Below are positions 37,216-43,443 of a stretch of DNA of 43,927 nt, one piece after another. Origin of the DNA: Lysobacterales bacterium (GTDB lineage Bacteria; Pseudomonadota; Gammaproteobacteria; Xanthomonadales; SZUA-36). Numbering within the stretch: position 1 is the stretch's first letter; each line of letters begins with the position of its first letter. The DNA is taken from contig JAOUCS010000015.1 in the NCBI GenBank assembly GCA_029859645.1, positions 1 through 43,927 of the forward strand, read 5' to 3'. The notes beneath the pieces were generated by a model. It was not told where the DNA came from, did not search any database, and worked only from the letters and a program-made list of their open reading frames with translations. A program made the translations under genes and the position numbers.

Positions 37216-37458
37216 ATGAAAGCCGGCATTCACCCCGAATACAATGATGTGGTGTTCCAGGACCTATCTTCGGATTTTGCGATCCTGACCCGCTCCACGA
37301 TCAAGAGCAAGGAAACCATCAAGTGGGAAGACGGTAACGAATACCCATTGGTGAAAGTTGAAGTTTCCAGTGCCTCACACCCGTTCTATACAGGAAAGCA
37401 CAAAGTGCTGGATTCTGGTGGCCGGGTCGACCGTTTCAAGAAGCGTTACGGCAAGTAA
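37216..37458 (+). CDS. rpmE2: 50S ribosomal protein L31 type B
   Basis: The 80-residue protein ([31 protein letters not shown]..., [28 protein letters not shown]) has the L31 pattern but lacks the zinc-binding cysteines of the A-type, so it is the zinc-independent type B form. In many bacteria the B-type replaces the A-type under zinc limitation under Zur control; I see no convincing Zur palindrome in the 79-nt upstream gap. AGGAA lies a few nt before the ATG. It ends with a strong terminator. Confidence 0.95.
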
Positions 37459-37563: not shown

Positions 37564-37594
37564 TTGGCTGAAAATTATCAAATTGTGCTATATT
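37564..37594 (+). promoter_or_regulatory. Probable extended -10 promoter for gltA
   Basis: A near-consensus -10 TATATT (37589-37594) is preceded by TG one base upstream (extended -10). A weak -35 TTGGCT lies at 37564-37569 with a long 19-nt spacer. The surrounding DNA is strongly AT-rich compared with the genes. It lies about 37 nt before the gltA start codon. Confidence 0.5.
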
Positions 37595-37630
37595 GATTGG
37601 CCCCGATCAGTATTTGTGCAGGAGAATCCA

Positions 37631-38923
37631 GTGGCCGAAAAAAAAGTAATTGTAACTGATGAATCATCTGGCAAACGGTTGGAACTGCCAAAAGTCGTTG
37701 GAACCGAGGGCGAACCGACCCTGGAAATCAAATCGCTTCCTTCTGAGCTGGGATATTTCACCTATGACCCGGGTTTCACCGCGACGGCCGCCTGCACCAG
37801 CAAGATTACGTTTATCGATGGTGGCAAGGGCATTCTGCGTTACCGCGGATACCCGATTGAACAGTTGGCCGAACGCAGCACCTTTGTTGAAGTGGCCTAT
37901 CTGCTTCTGAACGGAGAACTGCCTACTGAAAAAGGCCTTAATGCTTTTCGGGATGAATTGACCTATCACACGATGGTCCAGGAACAGGTCAACCATTTCA
38001 TACAGGGTTTTCATTATGACGCGCACCCGATGGCAATGATGGCCGGCGTGGTTGGCTCCCTGGCGGCGTTTTATCACAACCGGATGGACATGGAGAACCC
38101 GGAACACCGGATGCTGTCTGCGATGAGAATGATCGCAAAAATGCCGACCATCGCAGCCTCATGCTATCGGCATCACATGGGTTGGCCGGTTGCTTACCCC
38201 AGGAACAACCTGCGATTCTGTGAGCGTTTTCTCAACATGATGTTTTCGGTGCCAGCCGAGGAATACGAGGTCAGCGAAGTAGCTGCCAAGGCGCTGGACC
38301 TGTTGTTCATTCTGCATGCAGATCATGAACAAAACGCCAGTACGTCCACCGTCAGGCTGGTTGGCTCCACCGGAGCCAATCCGTATGCCTGTGTTGCGGC
38401 GGGCATATCTGCGCTGTGGGGTCCGGCGCATGGTGGCGCCAATGAAGCAGTGCTCTCGATGCTGGCTCAAATCGGAGACATTTCCGAAGTACCCAAATTT
38501 ATCAAGCGGGCCAAGGACAAGTCCGATCCTTTCCGGCTGATGGGATTTGGTCATCGCGTATACAAGCATTACGATCCGCGGGCTACCATCATCCGCGCCG
38601 CCTGTTACGAAGTTCTGGATGAACTGGGCAAGGATGACCCGATGATGGACCTGGCCATGGAACTGGAACGGATAGCCCTCGAAGACGACTATTTCGTTGA
38701 GAAGAAGCTTTATCCAAACGTGGATTTCTATTCAGGCATCATCTACAAGGCGCTGGGCATTCCTGTCAGCATGTTCACCGTCATGTTCGCGATTGCCAGA
38801 ACGGTTGGCTGGGTATCGCAGTGGCTTGAGCAATGTGAAACACCGACCAAGATCGGCAGGCCCAGGCAGGTCTATGCCGGCGAAACGGAACGGCGTTACC
38901 GCGCCTTGCACCGAAGGAAATAA
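37631..38923 (+). CDS. gltA: Citrate synthase (type II)
   Basis: The 430-residue enzyme (E. coli 427) condenses oxaloacetate and acetyl-CoA in the TCA cycle. Catalytic residues are visible: His267 in [11 protein letters not shown], the second His in [15 protein letters not shown] (about 308) and the Asp in [16 protein letters not shown] (about 365). The N-terminal extension region (residues 1-45) is typical of hexameric, NADH-regulated type II enzymes. The GTG start has AGGAG about 7 nt upstream; the frame upstream to 37583 overlaps the promoter and is rejected. The gene is monocistronic and converges on the next gene with only 16 nt between stops. Confidence 0.97.
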
Positions 38924-38939: not shown

Positions 38940-39632
38940 TCAGGGGGCCTGTTGGCCGGGCTCCGTGGCCGCTATTGGCAATGATTCAGCGAGCAAGCAC
39001 TCAGTTTCGCTAAGCGTGGCCCGGCGTTGTGGTTTACCGTCAATCGGGCTTGGCGGCGCCTGTCGCAGGTGGACCGGTTCGAAAATCGTCAACTCAACGG
39101 ATGCTCCATTCAATTCGAATACGATCAACGGCACCGTCTTGTGCGTGCCGTCGAACCATCGAATCTGACGCTGTTCTTCACTGAACGGCTGACCATGTTC
39201 CAGGAAATAAAGAATCACCAATTCGGTCGAGTCAGCGAAAACATGCAGTGCAATTCTGGAGTGCGAGCTTGCAGTACCGTCCAGGACGGAGCCGACCAGC
39301 CGGGGAGTAAATGACTGCAGCCTTTGCATGGCCTCTATGGCCGTCTCGCGCAAATACTCGAGGTTCTCGGTATGAGCCGGGCCACCATAAAGACCCTGAT
39401 AGCTGTGAAGTGCTTCTTTTACCTCGATATTACTGGGAAGAGCCAGGCGTTCGCTGACGCCGATTCTTTCAGCAGCCTTTTTCTTTGCGGCATGATAGTT
39501 GTGCTGGCCCTCGGTTGAAATGATGCGTGCGGCCTCCGCAGCAACTTCCAGCCGAATCTGCCTGAGCCTCCTGATATGGCGGGGAGGGGCTGCCTCAGTA
39601 TATTTCGTACGGGTCTTCTTCGAGCGGGGCAT
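38940..39632 (-). CDS. Conserved protein with nucleotidyltransferase-like signature
   Basis: The product has 230 residues from the ATG at 39632, which lies inside the last 38 nt of mrcA; the frame further upstream is only a shadow of mrcA. A basic helical N-terminus (MPRSKKTRTKYTEAAPPRHI, then EVAAEAARIISTEGQHNYHAAKKKAAERIG) precedes a domain with RLVGSVLDGTASSHSRIALHVFADSTELVILYFLEHG and a later VPLIVFELNGASVELTIFEP. The Gly-Ser and spacing resemble the nucleotidyltransferase pattern GSx(10)DhDhH, but the paired acidic residues are Arg/Ala, so catalysis is doubtful. I recall similar unnamed genes beside mrcA in other Gammaproteobacteria. There is no signal peptide. Function unknown; a role with cell-wall genes is only a guess from position. 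Confidence 0.72.
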   Translation of the reverse strand: MPRSKKTRTKYTEAAPPRHIRRLRQIRLEVAAEAARIISTEGQHNYHAAKKKAAERIGVSERLALPSNIEVKEALHSYQGLYGGPAHTENLEYLRETAIEAMQRLQSFTPRLVGSVLDGTASSHSRIALHVFADSTELVILYFLEHGQPFSEEQRQIRWFDGTHKTVPLIVFELNGASVELTIFEPVHLRQAPPSPIDGKPQRRATLSETECLLAESLPIAATEPGQQAP

Positions 39633-42087
39633 CCTGATCTTCTCCCTGATCCATTTGCTGCATCGGAGGCAGCCTTCCAGCCTGGAATATTTCCATGATT
39701 GCGTCGTCGTTATCAAGCAATGCAAGCATACCTGTTTCCGGATCGATTTTGGCCTGGGCCAGGCCTTCGGGCATCGCCGGCGGCCGGTCTTCCGTGCCTT
39801 CAAGGGCAATGGCCATGAATTCCATCCAGACCGGCAGGGCGGCACGGCCCCCCAGTTCTCGCCGGCCCATCGGCTCATGGTTGTCGAAACCAACCCAGAC
39901 CGATGTCACCAGGTGATCGTTGTAACCCGAAAACCAGGCATCGCGCTGTTCGTTGGTGGTTCCGGTTTTACCGGCAAGGTCCTTGCGGCCGAGCTGCATG
40001 GCCCTCACTCCGGTTCCCCGACGCACTACATCCATCATCATGGACCGGACCAGGTACGCATTTTGTGGCGAGATCGTTTGCTGGGCAAGCGTCCCTTCAA
40101 TTTTGAGCTCAGGCGCCTGCTGGCGGCGCAAGCCGGCCAAATCGTCAAGCTGCTCGTCACCCGCAGAAATGTCCAGTGGCCTGAATTCGGGTTCCACTTT
40201 TTCCACTACTGCGACATCTTCCTCGGGCAGAGACTCTTCTTCACAATCATCGCAAATGACGGAAGGCATTGTTTCGAAGACCTTTCGTCCCTCTGAATCT
40301 GAAATTCTGCGAATGAACTGTGGCGTTACCAGGTACCCGCCATTGGCGAATACTGCATAGCCTCTCGCCATGGACAGAGGGGTCAGAGAAGCACTGCCCA
40401 GGGCAAGCGAGAGGTTTGCAGGCATCTCGGATCTGTCGAATCCAAACCGCTCGGTAAAGTCCCGCGCGTATTCCACGCCAATCTCGCGCAGCAGCCGAAT
40501 GGATACCAGGTTGCGGGAATTGACCATTGCTTCACGCAGGCGCGTGGGCCCATAGAATTTTTCACTGAAGTTTTGTGGCTTCCAGGTTCGCTCCAGTTCC
40601 GAATCCTCGAAAACGATCGGTGCATCATTGACCAGGCTGGCAACGGTAAAGCCTTTTTCCAGCGCCGCAGAATAGATGAAGGGTTTAAAGCTGGAGCCAG
40701 GTTGCCTGCGGCCCTGGGTGATCCGGTTGTACTTGCTGCGGGCGAAGTCATAGCCGCCAACCAGCGCCTTGATATCGCCGTTTGAAGGGTCCAGTGAGAC
40801 CAGTGCCGCTTCGACTTCCGGCAGCTGCCCCAGCTTCCACTGACCGTCGTTATGCAGCCTGGCGCGTATGATATCGCCCGCTACCATGATGTCCTGGATG
40901 GATTTGGGCTTCTTGCCTTTTCTGTCGCGGTCGATGAAGGGTGCAGCCCAGGTCATGTCTTCGAGGGCGAGCGCCACGGTTTGACCGTTGCGCAGATAGA
41001 CCAGCGCCAGCTTCTCCTCGGTTTCAATGACCAGGCCGGGCTCAAGTCCGGATACCGGCCGATGTGGCATCAGGATATCTGCCCAGACATTGGTCGTGGA
41101 GTCCTGCAGCAGATCGACATGCGCCTCCGGTCCCCGGAAACCATGGCGCTGGTCGTATTCTTCAAGGCCGTTGGAAACCGCCAGGTTTGCTGCTGTCTGC
41201 AAGCGGCTGTTAATGGTGGTTGTGACCACGTATCCGCCGGTATAAGCCCTTGAACCCAATAACTTGAGGGCTTTCACACGCGCCATTTCAGCCACGTAAG
41301 GTGCGGAGATCTCAGCAATGGCGCCGTGGTAGTACGCGCGGTCTGCTTCATTGACTGCAGCATCGTGTTCACCCTGATCGATGTAGTCGAGTTCGAGCAT
41401 CCGATTGAGCACATAGTTTCTGCGTTCCAGGGCTCTTTCCGGCGAAGTGATGGGGTTGATTCGCGATGGCGCCTTGGGCAATGCCGCGATCATTGCGCAT
41501 TGAGCCAATGACAGCTGGTTTGTAGATTTTCCGTAATATACTTCGGCTGCCGCGCCGACACCGTAAGCACGGTAACCCAGGAAAATCTTGTTCAGGTACA
41601 ACTCCAGAATCTCATCCTTGTCGAGACTCTGTTCTATCTTGATGGCGAGGAAAGCTTCCTTGATTTTTCGTGTCCAGGTTTTTTCAGCCGTCAGGAAAAA
41701 ATTTCGGGCCAATTGCTGAGTGATGGTGCTGCCGCCGATACTTTTCTCACCCGTCGTTATCAGTGACCACACGGCGCGGGTGATCCCCTGGTAATCGAGT
41801 CCCGGATGTTCATAAAAGCGGGCATCTTCACCGGCGAGGAATGCCTGCTTTAACCATTGCGGCATGTTTTCGACCTGTACCGGTATGCGCCGCTTTTCGC
41901 CGAAAATACCCAACAACCTTCCATCTTCACTGAAGACGCGAAGAGGAACTTGCAGCTGAACATCACGCAGCGTTTCAACGTCGGGCAAATCAGGTTCAAG
42001 GACCCAGTAGGTGACGGCCACCGCTGCAGCCCCGAGCAGCGAAGAAACCAAAATGAATATGACAAATCTGCGAAAGAGTTTCTTCAC
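39595..42087 (-). CDS. mrcA: Bifunctional penicillin-binding protein 1A
   Basis: This 830-residue class A PBP polymerises and cross-links peptidoglycan. An N-terminal TM anchor (FVIFILVSSLLGAAAVAVTYWVL) is followed by a GT51 glycosyltransferase domain (Glu87 in GEDARFYEHPG; GGSTITQQLARNFF; KIKEAFLAIKIE), an OB-type insert (about 315-425) and the transpeptidase domain with SxxK at Ser465-Lys468 (GSSFKPF), SxN at 524-526 (SRN) and KTG at 707-709. Between SxN and KTG there is an acidic insertion (about 610-660) with CDDCEEE. The GTG start has AGGA 7 nt upstream. It is divergent from pilM, the usual arrangement in Pseudomonas-like bacteria. Confidence 0.97.
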   Translation of the reverse strand: MKKLFRRFVIFILVSSLLGAAAVAVTYWVLEPDLPDVETLRDVQLQVPLRVFSEDGRLLGIFGEKRRIPVQVENMPQWLKQAFLAGEDARFYEHPGLDYQGITRAVWSLITTGEKSIGGSTITQQLARNFFLTAEKTWTRKIKEAFLAIKIEQSLDKDEILELYLNKIFLGYRAYGVGAAAEVYYGKSTNQLSLAQCAMIAALPKAPSRINPITSPERALERRNYVLNRMLELDYIDQGEHDAAVNEADRAYYHGAIAEISAPYVAEMARVKALKLLGSRAYTGGYVVTTTINSRLQTAANLAVSNGLEEYDQRHGFRGPEAHVDLLQDSTTNVWADILMPHRPVSGLEPGLVIETEEKLALVYLRNGQTVALALEDMTWAAPFIDRDRKGKKPKSIQDIMVAGDIIRARLHNDGQWKLGQLPEVEAALVSLDPSNGDIKALVGGYDFARSKYNRITQGRRQPGSSFKPFIYSAALEKGFTVASLVNDAPIVFEDSELERTWKPQNFSEKFYGPTRLREAMVNSRNLVSIRLLREIGVEYARDFTERFGFDRSEMPANLSLALGSASLTPLSMARGYAVFANGGYLVTPQFIRRISDSEGRKVFETMPSVICDDCEEESLPEEDVAVVEKVEPEFRPLDISAGDEQLDDLAGLRRQQAPELKIEGTLAQQTISPQNAYLVRSMMMDVVRRGTGVRAMQLGRKDLAGKTGTTNEQRDAWFSGYNDHLVTSVWVGFDNHEPMGRRELGGRAALPVWMEFMAIALEGTEDRPPAMPEGLAQAKIDPETGMLALLDNDDAIMEIFQAGRLPPMQQMDQGEDQDAPLEEDPYEIY

Positions 42088-42384: not shown

Positions 42385-43443
42385 TTGAAAATATTGGGCA
42401 CCAAATCACCACCCTTAATGGGTTTGGATATCGGGTCTTCGAGCATACGCTTGTTGCAACTATCCCGGCATGGAAACTCTTACCGGATCGATCACTTCGC
42501 GATAGAGCCATTACCACCTGGCGTTATCGTCGAAAAATCGGTTCAGGACATAGAGGCCATTTCCGGGGCCATCCAGTCTGCAGTCAGGAACTCGGGTTCG
42601 AGTTCCAAGTACTGTGCAGTGGCTGTTTCTGGTTCAGCAGTGTTCACGAAGACAATCAGCCTCCCTGCGAACCTGGCCGAAGCGGACATCGAAAGCCAGG
42701 TGCAGATCGAGGCCAATCAATATATTCCCTATCCGCTGGATGAAATCAGCTTGGATTTCGAAGTTCTTGGGCCTTCGGCCAGGAATGCGGACATGGTGGA
42801 TATTCTGCTGGCGGCCAGCAAGAACGAAAATGTTGAAAGCCGGCAGGACGCCCTCGAATCACTCGGCCTGAAAACGCGGGTGGTCGATGTCGAATCATTC
42901 GCCATGGCCAACGCCTTCGAGCTGATTCGTGAACGTGAGGGTATCCGGAGCACCGAAACCGTCGGAGTCTTCGATATCGGCTATGACCTGTCCACCTTGC
43001 TGATCCTGCGAAACGGCCGGGTCGTGTATACACGGGACCATCCGTTTGGCGGCAACCAGCTGGTTGAGGAAATCATGCGGCGGTATGACATGACCGCAGA
43101 GCAAGCCGGCTTTTTCATGCGAGGCGAACCGGGCCCCGAGAATTTCGAAGATGAGGTTCTGGAGCCGTTTATGTTGAATGTGGTTCACCAGATCAGTCGC
43201 GCACTCCAGTTTTACAGCTCCAGTGCCGAATTTTCCAACATCAGGACGATCTATCTTTCGGGCAGCATGGCCTCGGTTAAAGGTCTCGCTGATGTCGTGG
43301 AGCAGGAGTTGGGTATCAAGACGGGCGTGGCCGATCCGGTCAGCGGACTTGAACTCGCTCCGTCAGTGGCGGTTGCAGCTCTCACCAGAAATGCACCGAA
43401 CCTTATGATTGCGATGGGACTTGCTCTCAGGGGGTTTGACTGA
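42385..43443 (+). CDS. pilM: Type IV pilus inner-membrane platform protein PilM
   Basis: The 352-residue actin-like (FtsA-fold) cytoplasmic protein has nucleotide-binding pieces MGLDIGSSSIRLLQLS near the N-terminus, TVGVFDIGYDLSTLLIL in the middle and TIYLSGSMASVKGLADVVEQELGI toward the end. PilM binds the N-terminal peptide of PilN and links the pilus motor to the PilN-PilO-PilP alignment complex. The TTG start has GAGGG about 6 nt upstream; this rare start may keep expression low. Its TGA overlaps the pilN ATG by one base. Confidence 0.96.
   Translation: MKILGTKSPPLMGLDIGSSSIRLLQLSRHGNSYRIDHFAIEPLPPGVIVEKSVQDIEAISGAIQSAVRNSGSSSKYCAVAVSGSAVFTKTISLPANLAEADIESQVQIEANQYIPYPLDEISLDFEVLGPSARNADMVDILLAASKNENVESRQDALESLGLKTRVVDVESFAMANAFELIREREGIRSTETVGVFDIGYDLSTLLILRNGRVVYTRDHPFGGNQLVEEIMRRYDMTAEQAGFFMRGEPGPENFEDEVLEPFMLNVVHQISRALQFYSSSAEFSNIRTIYLSGSMASVKGLADVVEQELGIKTGVADPVSGLELAPSVAVAALTRNAPNLMIAMGLALRGFD

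Follow-up and report, generated by a model that had tools for sequence, protein, structure and literature searches.

A putative pseudo-nucleotidyltransferase family linked to mrcA in Gammaproteobacteria

Nucleotidyltransferases (NTases) carry a glycine-turn motif of the form hG[G/S]. The type VII antitoxin MntA is one of the minimal MNT NTases, and in MntA/HepT systems the NTase gene adjoins a HEPN toxin gene. Pseudo-NTases are known in eukaryotes, where Utp22/NOL6 and MiD51 are inactive, and we know of no cell-wall link for these proteins or for MAB21L1. To our knowledge, the cytoplasmic regulation of class A PBPs in Gram-negative bacteria, the enzymes on which GpsB and LpoA act as regulators, is poorly understood. 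MAB21L1 is reported to have bound CTP and to have been seen in an inactive conformation (PMC4897736).

The window, i.e. the whole stretch of 43,927 nucleotides that was analysed, holds a gene whose product can be set against these systems. Its features are as follows.

38940..39632, minus strand: candidate pseudo-nucleotidyltransferase gene, 230 aa plus stop (ORF, translation, homologue matches, pN/pS)
39595..39632, minus strand: 38-bp overlap with mrcA, with the start codon within it (ORF coordinates, spacing in relatives)
39642..39647, minus strand: AGGGAG, similar to a ribosome-binding site, inside mrcA and 9 nt 5' of the ATG (sequence)
39595..42087, minus strand: mrcA, PBP1A family, directly upstream (profile scan)
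42385..43443, plus strand: ORF divergent from mrcA, probably pilM-like (product used as neighbourhood probe)
37583..38923, plus strand: gltA (citrate synthase), convergent, downstream of the NTase-like gene (profile scan)
39309..39581, minus strand: predicted four-helix N-terminal module, residues 18-108, weakly TetR-HTH-like (models, conservation, profile comparison)
39231..39293, minus strand: degenerate NTase signature GSVLDGTASSHSRIALHVFAD, residues 114-134, with R126 and A128 at the positions of the NTase Asp pair
38982..39383, minus strand: predicted NTase-fold core, residues 84-217 (AlphaFold2 model, fold searches)

With the Pol beta-like NTase superfamily (PF01909/PF18765/PF14091) the family shares the predicted core fold and the pattern G-x4-G-T/A-x3-S in equal spacing and register; unlike there, the DxD columns are unconstrained and the window protein matches none of these models. 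Utp22/NOL6, MiD51 and MAB21L1 are similar in keeping an NTase fold where catalysis is absent or doubtful, but they are eukaryotic. The minimal signature is shared with MntA and the MNT NTases, and 2 of 83 members weakly match NF047752 (best 0.01), whereas the window family differs from MntA by its N-terminal helical module, the DxD that is not kept and the missing HEPN neighbour in the window. GpsB and LpoA are comparable only in the proposed role, the modulation of a peptidoglycan synthase; no relation between them and the NTase-like family was seen.

The reading frame described in the initial annotation is complete (ATG 39632-39630, stop 38940-38942), encodes 230 aa on the minus strand and begins, as proposed there, inside mrcA, which ends at 39595; the stretches quoted from its product, VGSVLDGTASSHSRIALHVFAD and VELTIFEP, are both present. 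The window genome has a single copy. Since matches were found in 49 of the 61 genomes of the window's nearest kin (its own included) and pN lies well below pS (0.09-0.25 and 0.69-0.78 against nine relatives, with many dS values saturated), the ORF is not a chance one; the gene is under purifying selection and selected for its protein. The mrcA product exceeds the cut-off of the PBP1A family model TIGR02074 (603.7 bits, cut-off 508.75) and is below that of the narrower MrcA equivalog NF008643 (812.3 bits, cut-off 1263). Of the loci L001-L028, 28 with that of the window, 26 have the identical 38-bp overlap, and among L029-L047, outside family f1, the spacing ranges from an overlap of 71 bp to a gap of 236 bp. 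Judged by eye, purine-rich stretches similar to AGGGAG precede the start codon in many relatives.

The NTase-like fold suspected in the initial annotation found support in structure prediction. The AlphaFold2 model built from an 81-row alignment (pLDDT 89.3, pTM 0.79) matches NTase structures weakly but consistently, and no unrelated fold was recognised among the rows listed in the fold searches. In Foldseek no PDB entry reached E <= 1e-3; the 50 rows listed (E 2.3e-3 to 2.1e-2) are poly(A) polymerases, TUTases, CCA/tRNA-processing enzymes, Pol mu, LinB, SpoT and ANT(4'). The best VIA-align match was a CCA-adding enzyme (Z 8.7, rmsd 3.1, 104 aligned), against a background in which Z 7-8 is common, and two processome chains, which we take to be Utp22/NOL6, are also among the matches (6zqf_UV, Z 8.0; 7mq8_NH, Z 7.3). 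RelA/SpoT-type structures (5ded_E, Z 7.7, rmsd 3.2, 112 aligned; SpoT 7qps, TMq 0.37) are not separable from other NTase folds. Judging by their titles, we take the 50 Foldseek and 50 VIA-align rows listed to be NTase-superfamily proteins throughout. In a viral structure library, the four rows at E <= 1e-3 are mostly unnamed or uncharacterised, and some NTase-like ones stand lower down, so that this library was uninformative.

Because Z values of 7-8 are common, the NTase claim rests on the consistency of these rows together with the sequence register. Compared with 19 NTase sequences of related genomes, the core of an 83-row profile reached a probability of 26%, and in this alignment both glycines, the Ser and the Asp columns are in register with true NTases. 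The controls remained low. None of the TetR, MrcA, GltA and PilM profiles exceeded 0.7%, reversal of the profile gave 0.6%, and 30 column shuffles reached 0.7% at best. With the narrower 81-row profile the NTases were missed (0.4%). Several of the 83 diverse members match NTase models at E <= 1, namely DUF4269 (10, best 3.3e-5), NTP_transf_2 (8, best 0.0035) and Polbeta (3, best 2.4e-4), at a weak level at which unrelated Pfam families match members as well, e.g. COX7a in 4. The gathering cut-off of PF01909 (NTP_transf_2) was not reached, with best values of 0.0022 among 46 near relatives and 0.0035 among the 83 members, and the window protein itself gave no match to PF01909, PF18765 or PF14091 at E <= 1. 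A sequence search of the PDB yielded no meaningful match, the best being a putative kinase (0.012), and 0.4 and 0.5 with the broader profile. Taken as a prediction from models, an NTase-fold core in this family is well supported.

The signature of the window protein reads G114-S-V-L-D-G119-T-A-S-S-H-S-R126-I-A128-L-H130. The glycine turn is present (G114-S115), and class-wide G114 occurs in 169, G119 in 163 and Ser115 in 54 of 173 sequences. NTases carry Asp at the positions that the computed register equates with 126 and 128. In the window protein this metal-binding [D/E]h[D/E] pair is absent, as the initial annotation had noted, with R126 and A128 in its place, and the alignment of homologues extends the statement to the family, in which the pair is missing or unconstrained. 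A loss limited to the window can be dismissed, the columns being unconstrained across the class: an acid-x-acid pair occurs in 10 of 173 class sequences and in none of the 81 rows of the A2 set, where position 128 is never acidic and position 126 is acidic in 17 rows; class-wide, 74 of 173 sequences have an acid at 126 and 118 at 180. The third acid, E180 in the window, is E or D in 80 of 81 A2 rows and in the same 118 of 173 class sequences. Among 196 columns, ranked by conservation in 146 representatives under 70% identity, positions 126, 128 and 180 take ranks 168, 175 and 103, as against 2 for G114, 8 for R204, 9 for G119, 12 for L129 and 14 for H130. On a FastTree of 203 rows, the 10 rows with an acid pair need 9 changes, an acid at 126 needs 33 and one at 180 needs 27, counts that do not separate gain from loss. 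To judge from the sequences, the metal-binding carboxylates appear to be no longer under selection, which would make the family a pseudo-nucleotidyltransferase; in the plain reading, two-metal chemistry would not be what selection preserves. As strand residues alternate, H130 should face the same side of the strand as 126 and 128 and could form a different site together with E180.

The predicted N-terminal module spans four helices (residues 18-106 in a model of this part alone, 18-104 in the whole model). It holds many of the most conserved residues of the protein (A35, A49, K52, A53, P66), and 14 of the 25 most conserved positions fall within residues 1-108. Against 29 TetR domains of related genomes (PF00440), the 83-row profile reached 43% and the 81-row profile 4.2%, to be read against four unrelated profiles at 0.7% or less and one of 30 column shuffles that reached 26%. 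The structural similarity to the TetR protein 4cgr_A in VIA (Z 4.8, rmsd 2.6, 60 aligned, 25% identity) is far under the threshold for helical bundles. In TetR proteins the recognition helix follows a GVS turn; in both models of the module this helix is absent, residues 58-67 being coil. An assignment of the module alone to a known fold was discarded, given that Z did not exceed 5.4 and the rows were a mixture of designed, pilotin, TetR, TrpR and histone proteins. DNA binding by this module is no more than a possible lead.

The family has no model in Pfam or NCBIfam, and the window protein matched neither over the cut-off. In a collection of named genomes, 506 of 556 candidate stretches matched; among the best 80, which were kept, the closest are MAGs labelled Lysobacterales or Xanthomonadales, and the named carriers include Wenzhouxiangella, Dyella, Rhodanobacter, Tahibacter, Thioalkalivibrio and Steroidobacteraceae. 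A class-wide sample had the family in 179 of 369 genomes and lacked it in 190. Sampling across the phylum gave matches in 38 of 398 genomes, all 38 from the window's class, the 360 others being counted without division by class. The family is likely confined to Gammaproteobacteria in the GTDB sense. The gene is dispensable, because within the window's own family 8 of 37 genomes, some of them incomplete, lack a match and another one, G026, retains only a remnant. This remnant (L049:5022-5180) comprises 83 aa after mrcA, starts still 38 bp inside mrcA and is a decaying copy. In G342, the gene is split on one contig (L172, L188), with the N-terminal part behind mrcA at about 720 kb and the C-terminal part at about 2.47 Mb, owing to either an inversion through the gene or a misassembly. 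An origin from a mobile element or a toxin-antitoxin system was considered and rejected: a search of plasmids found no match to the window protein or to the one mpl-type protein used as a second query, and there is no HEPN toxin gene beside the window gene, whose neighbours are mrcA and gltA.

The linkage to mrcA is well supported. Among 49 near-relative loci, counting that of the window and the remnant, 48 have MrcA encoded immediately upstream in the same orientation; in the 49th (L048) it is about 1.8 kb upstream. It stands upstream in 77 of the 80 named loci, many of which are from the same genomes as the near-relative set, with a distance of 1.6 kb in L128. Class-wide, 177 of the 179 carriers gave 179 loci, two being second pieces of a genome and four genomes belonging also to the near-relative set; 172 of them have at least 1.2 kb of upstream DNA (7 are too short), and in 158 of these 172 MrcA lies upstream on the same strand, the match ends being at most 499 bp apart. 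The suggestion in the initial annotation that the gene is tied to mrcA thus holds in all three sets, and the homologues are not scattered. From the mrcA stop to the start codon of the NTase-like gene, the gap was estimated in 151 class loci (median 17 bp), of which 13 overlap, 98 have 0-50 bp, 28 have 51-100 bp, 9 have 101-200 bp and 3 are longer. Of the 98 class loci that have MrcA and extend upstream by at least 3.2 kb, 96 show a pilM match beyond mrcA. In the downstream direction, only 29 of the 164 class loci that extend for at least 1.4 kb have gltA, an adjacency limited to some lineages; the neighbourhood is therefore not frozen in general.

A PBP1A-type domain was also present in 49 of 66 class genomes drawn at random from those lacking the family, hence PBP1A does not depend on the NTase-like protein. 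In 40 relatives, PBP1A has by eye a cytoplasmic tail of only about 3-18 residues, and a GpsB-like docking on a cytoplasmic mini-domain of PBP1A was accordingly set aside as unlikely. A replacement of LpoA was likewise rejected: LpoA (PF04348) was detected in 40 of 40 PBP1A-bearing genomes without the family and in 38 of 40 with it.

Fourteen class loci are not linked to mrcA. Two of them (L180, L181) belong to an mpl-type group (f118, f199, f201, f206; 19 genomes), of which 17 genomes were fetched with wider flanks, G732 and G770 being omitted. Here the gene is divergent from mpl, which encodes the UDP-MurNAc:tripeptide ligase of murein recycling and was matched in 16 of the 17 genomes. Three of the Mpl sequences were checked against TIGR01081 (684-707 bits, cut-off 388.7), and the remaining matches rest on a profile made from these three. 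By open-frame ends, the gene and mpl are about 170 bp or less apart in 14 of the 16 genomes, about 650 bp in L330 and about 1.8 kb in L325. The scanned same-strand neighbours in this group include a thioredoxin-like gene and a biotin-carrier gene (both L325) and aroQ (L335), and we presume accC and prmA nearby, as assigned from length and order alone. In the 17th genome (L324, 4957-6408), the gene follows at about 40 bp or less behind mtgA, i.e. the gene of the monofunctional murein transglycosylase (257.6 bits against TIGR02070, cut-off 182.65). On the 203-row tree the mpl label needs two changes or perhaps one, which therefore indicates one or two relocations and not many independent ones.

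A further unlinked locus, L172, is half a gene whose other half stands behind mrcA. In L209 (3528-5126) and L220 (2306-4187), an open copy of the gene lies beside pilM, divergent from it and with mrcA missing in between, and a PBP1A-type OB domain was not detected in the respective genomes, G127 and G257. The named locus L117 (3752-5618) has the same arrangement next to pilM without mrcA, and all three give the impression that mrcA was lost while the gene behind it stayed. A PBP1A-type domain is present somewhere in 12 of the 14 unlinked genomes; as the gene persists in the two others, where PBP1A was not detected, the protein can outlast PBP1A. The initial annotation had supposed that the protein may be made only when PBP1A is made. 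The overlap and the spacing fit co-expression, but the gene has a ribosome-site-like sequence of its own, 14 of 172 class loci are unlinked to mrcA and two such genomes are without detected PBP1A, so that the supposition is supported only in part.

The nine other unlinked loci (L173, which equals L337, L198, L241, L249, L258, L269, L285, L287 and L292) have no recognised murein neighbour among the subset of ORFs scanned, and they weaken the case for a murein function. Their scanned neighbours are RlaP, HD, DUF4132, a dehydratase, CheW/response regulator, PriA, a Der-type GTPase, porphobilinogen deaminase, an epimerase, an ABC-auxiliary protein, HMP kinase and a class-III aminotransferase. One of these loci, L337 (3612-5640), holds a divergent member with intact GS and DID and without link to mrcA, situated downstream of genes for the RlaP nucleotidyltransferase and an HD-domain protein; by its sequence it is possibly an active relative.

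What could such a protein do? The most likely reading, to which we assign a probability of somewhat less than one half (about 0.46), is that of a soluble, non-catalytic, ligand-binding regulator of peptidoglycan metabolism. The product appears soluble, no membrane segment or signal peptide being evident by eye. It would probably be translated from the mrcA transcript through its own ribosome site, and nucleotide transfer would most likely be absent. As the glycine turns of the pocket are kept and His130 and Arg204 are conserved, ligand binding is probable, with a nucleotide or a UDP-sugar as a plausible ligand, and the protein may relay the bound state to a partner that takes part in making or recycling peptidoglycan. 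This partner is unlikely to be PBP1A alone, because the gene outlives mrcA in a few lineages. The regulator reading is supported by the class-wide coupling to mrcA, the mpl and mtgA contexts and the conserved turns with the new His and Arg. Against it speak the short PBP1A tails, the absence from half of the class, the unlinked loci of non-murein character, the persistence without detected PBP1A and the divergent orientation of mpl, which is therefore not in the same operon. An extended version, in which the TetR-like module and the dead NTase domain would form a one-component sensor that reads a cell-wall nucleotide sugar, e.g. the Mpl product UDP-MurNAc-peptide, and sets the output of murein genes or enzymes (PBP1A, MtgA, Mpl), seems quite improbable to us. 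If it were true, murein polymerisation in Gammaproteobacteria would be coupled by cytosolic feedback to the supply of murein precursors or to recycling.

Among the alternatives, the most serious one, which we nevertheless consider unlikely, is that the gene is an operon passenger with a role unrelated to the cell wall, e.g. in RNA or nucleotide metabolism, whose neighbourhood is kept for expression only. The mrcA-pilM arrangement is itself stable (96 of 98), the gene outlives mrcA beside pilM in L209, L220 and L117, and both the nine loci without a recognised murein neighbour among the ORFs scanned and the divergent DxD member next to RlaP and an HD protein would suit such a role. However, neighbours at this place are not retained indiscriminately, given that gltA is kept in 29 of 164 loci and the NTase-like gene with mrcA in 158 of 172, and a murein gene adjoins in 17 of 17 mpl-type genomes (mpl in 16, mtgA in one), a count reflecting perhaps only one or two relocations. 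Direct attachment to PBP1A or another membrane synthase as a structural adaptor, somewhat like GpsB and without need of a small ligand, would also be consistent with the co-occurrence and spacing with mrcA and with the 14 of 25 most conserved positions in residues 1-108. We judge it rather unlikely, since PBP1A has, by eye, no mini-domain in its cytoplasmic tail, the conservation of G114 and G119 would stay unexplained and the gene persists in the two genomes without detected PBP1A.

Equally improbable as the one-component sensor is an atypical active NTase, in which members with D/E126 and E/D180 would still coordinate a single metal, with a cell-wall nucleotide or a protein as substrate, and the window lineage would be a degraded copy. 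This pair is still found in some lineages, where activity is therefore possible: 46 of 173 class sequences are acidic at 126 as well as 180, in 6 of these 128 is also acidic, and 14 of 17 mpl-type members combine D126 with Y or H at 128. Nevertheless, few columns of the family vary as much as the two of the first strand, members with acid-x-acid are dispersed over the tree and the Ser of the GS motif at position 115 is present in only 54 of 173 sequences. Moreover, cGAS is reported to become inactive with Ala at any of the three acids or with E200Q together with D202N (PMC4897736).

The pseudo-enzyme tied to cell-wall synthesis that the initial annotation regarded as new has thus to be placed with some care: a pseudo-NTase is a known kind of protein, the family itself is uncharacterised and unnamed. 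Among the matches listed in a search of the open-access literature, titles and the beginnings of abstracts contained nothing on this family or on an mrcA-linked nucleotidyltransferase. Present in about half of the sampled class genomes, where it mostly accompanies mrcA and, in one branch, mpl or mtgA, the family offers a concrete candidate regulator, and it represents an apparent bacterial NTase-fold family that has shed the catalytic residues and kept the turns of the pocket. As a minor observation from the same window, an ORF of 80 aa at 37216-37458, before gltA, resembles ribosomal protein L31 by eye.
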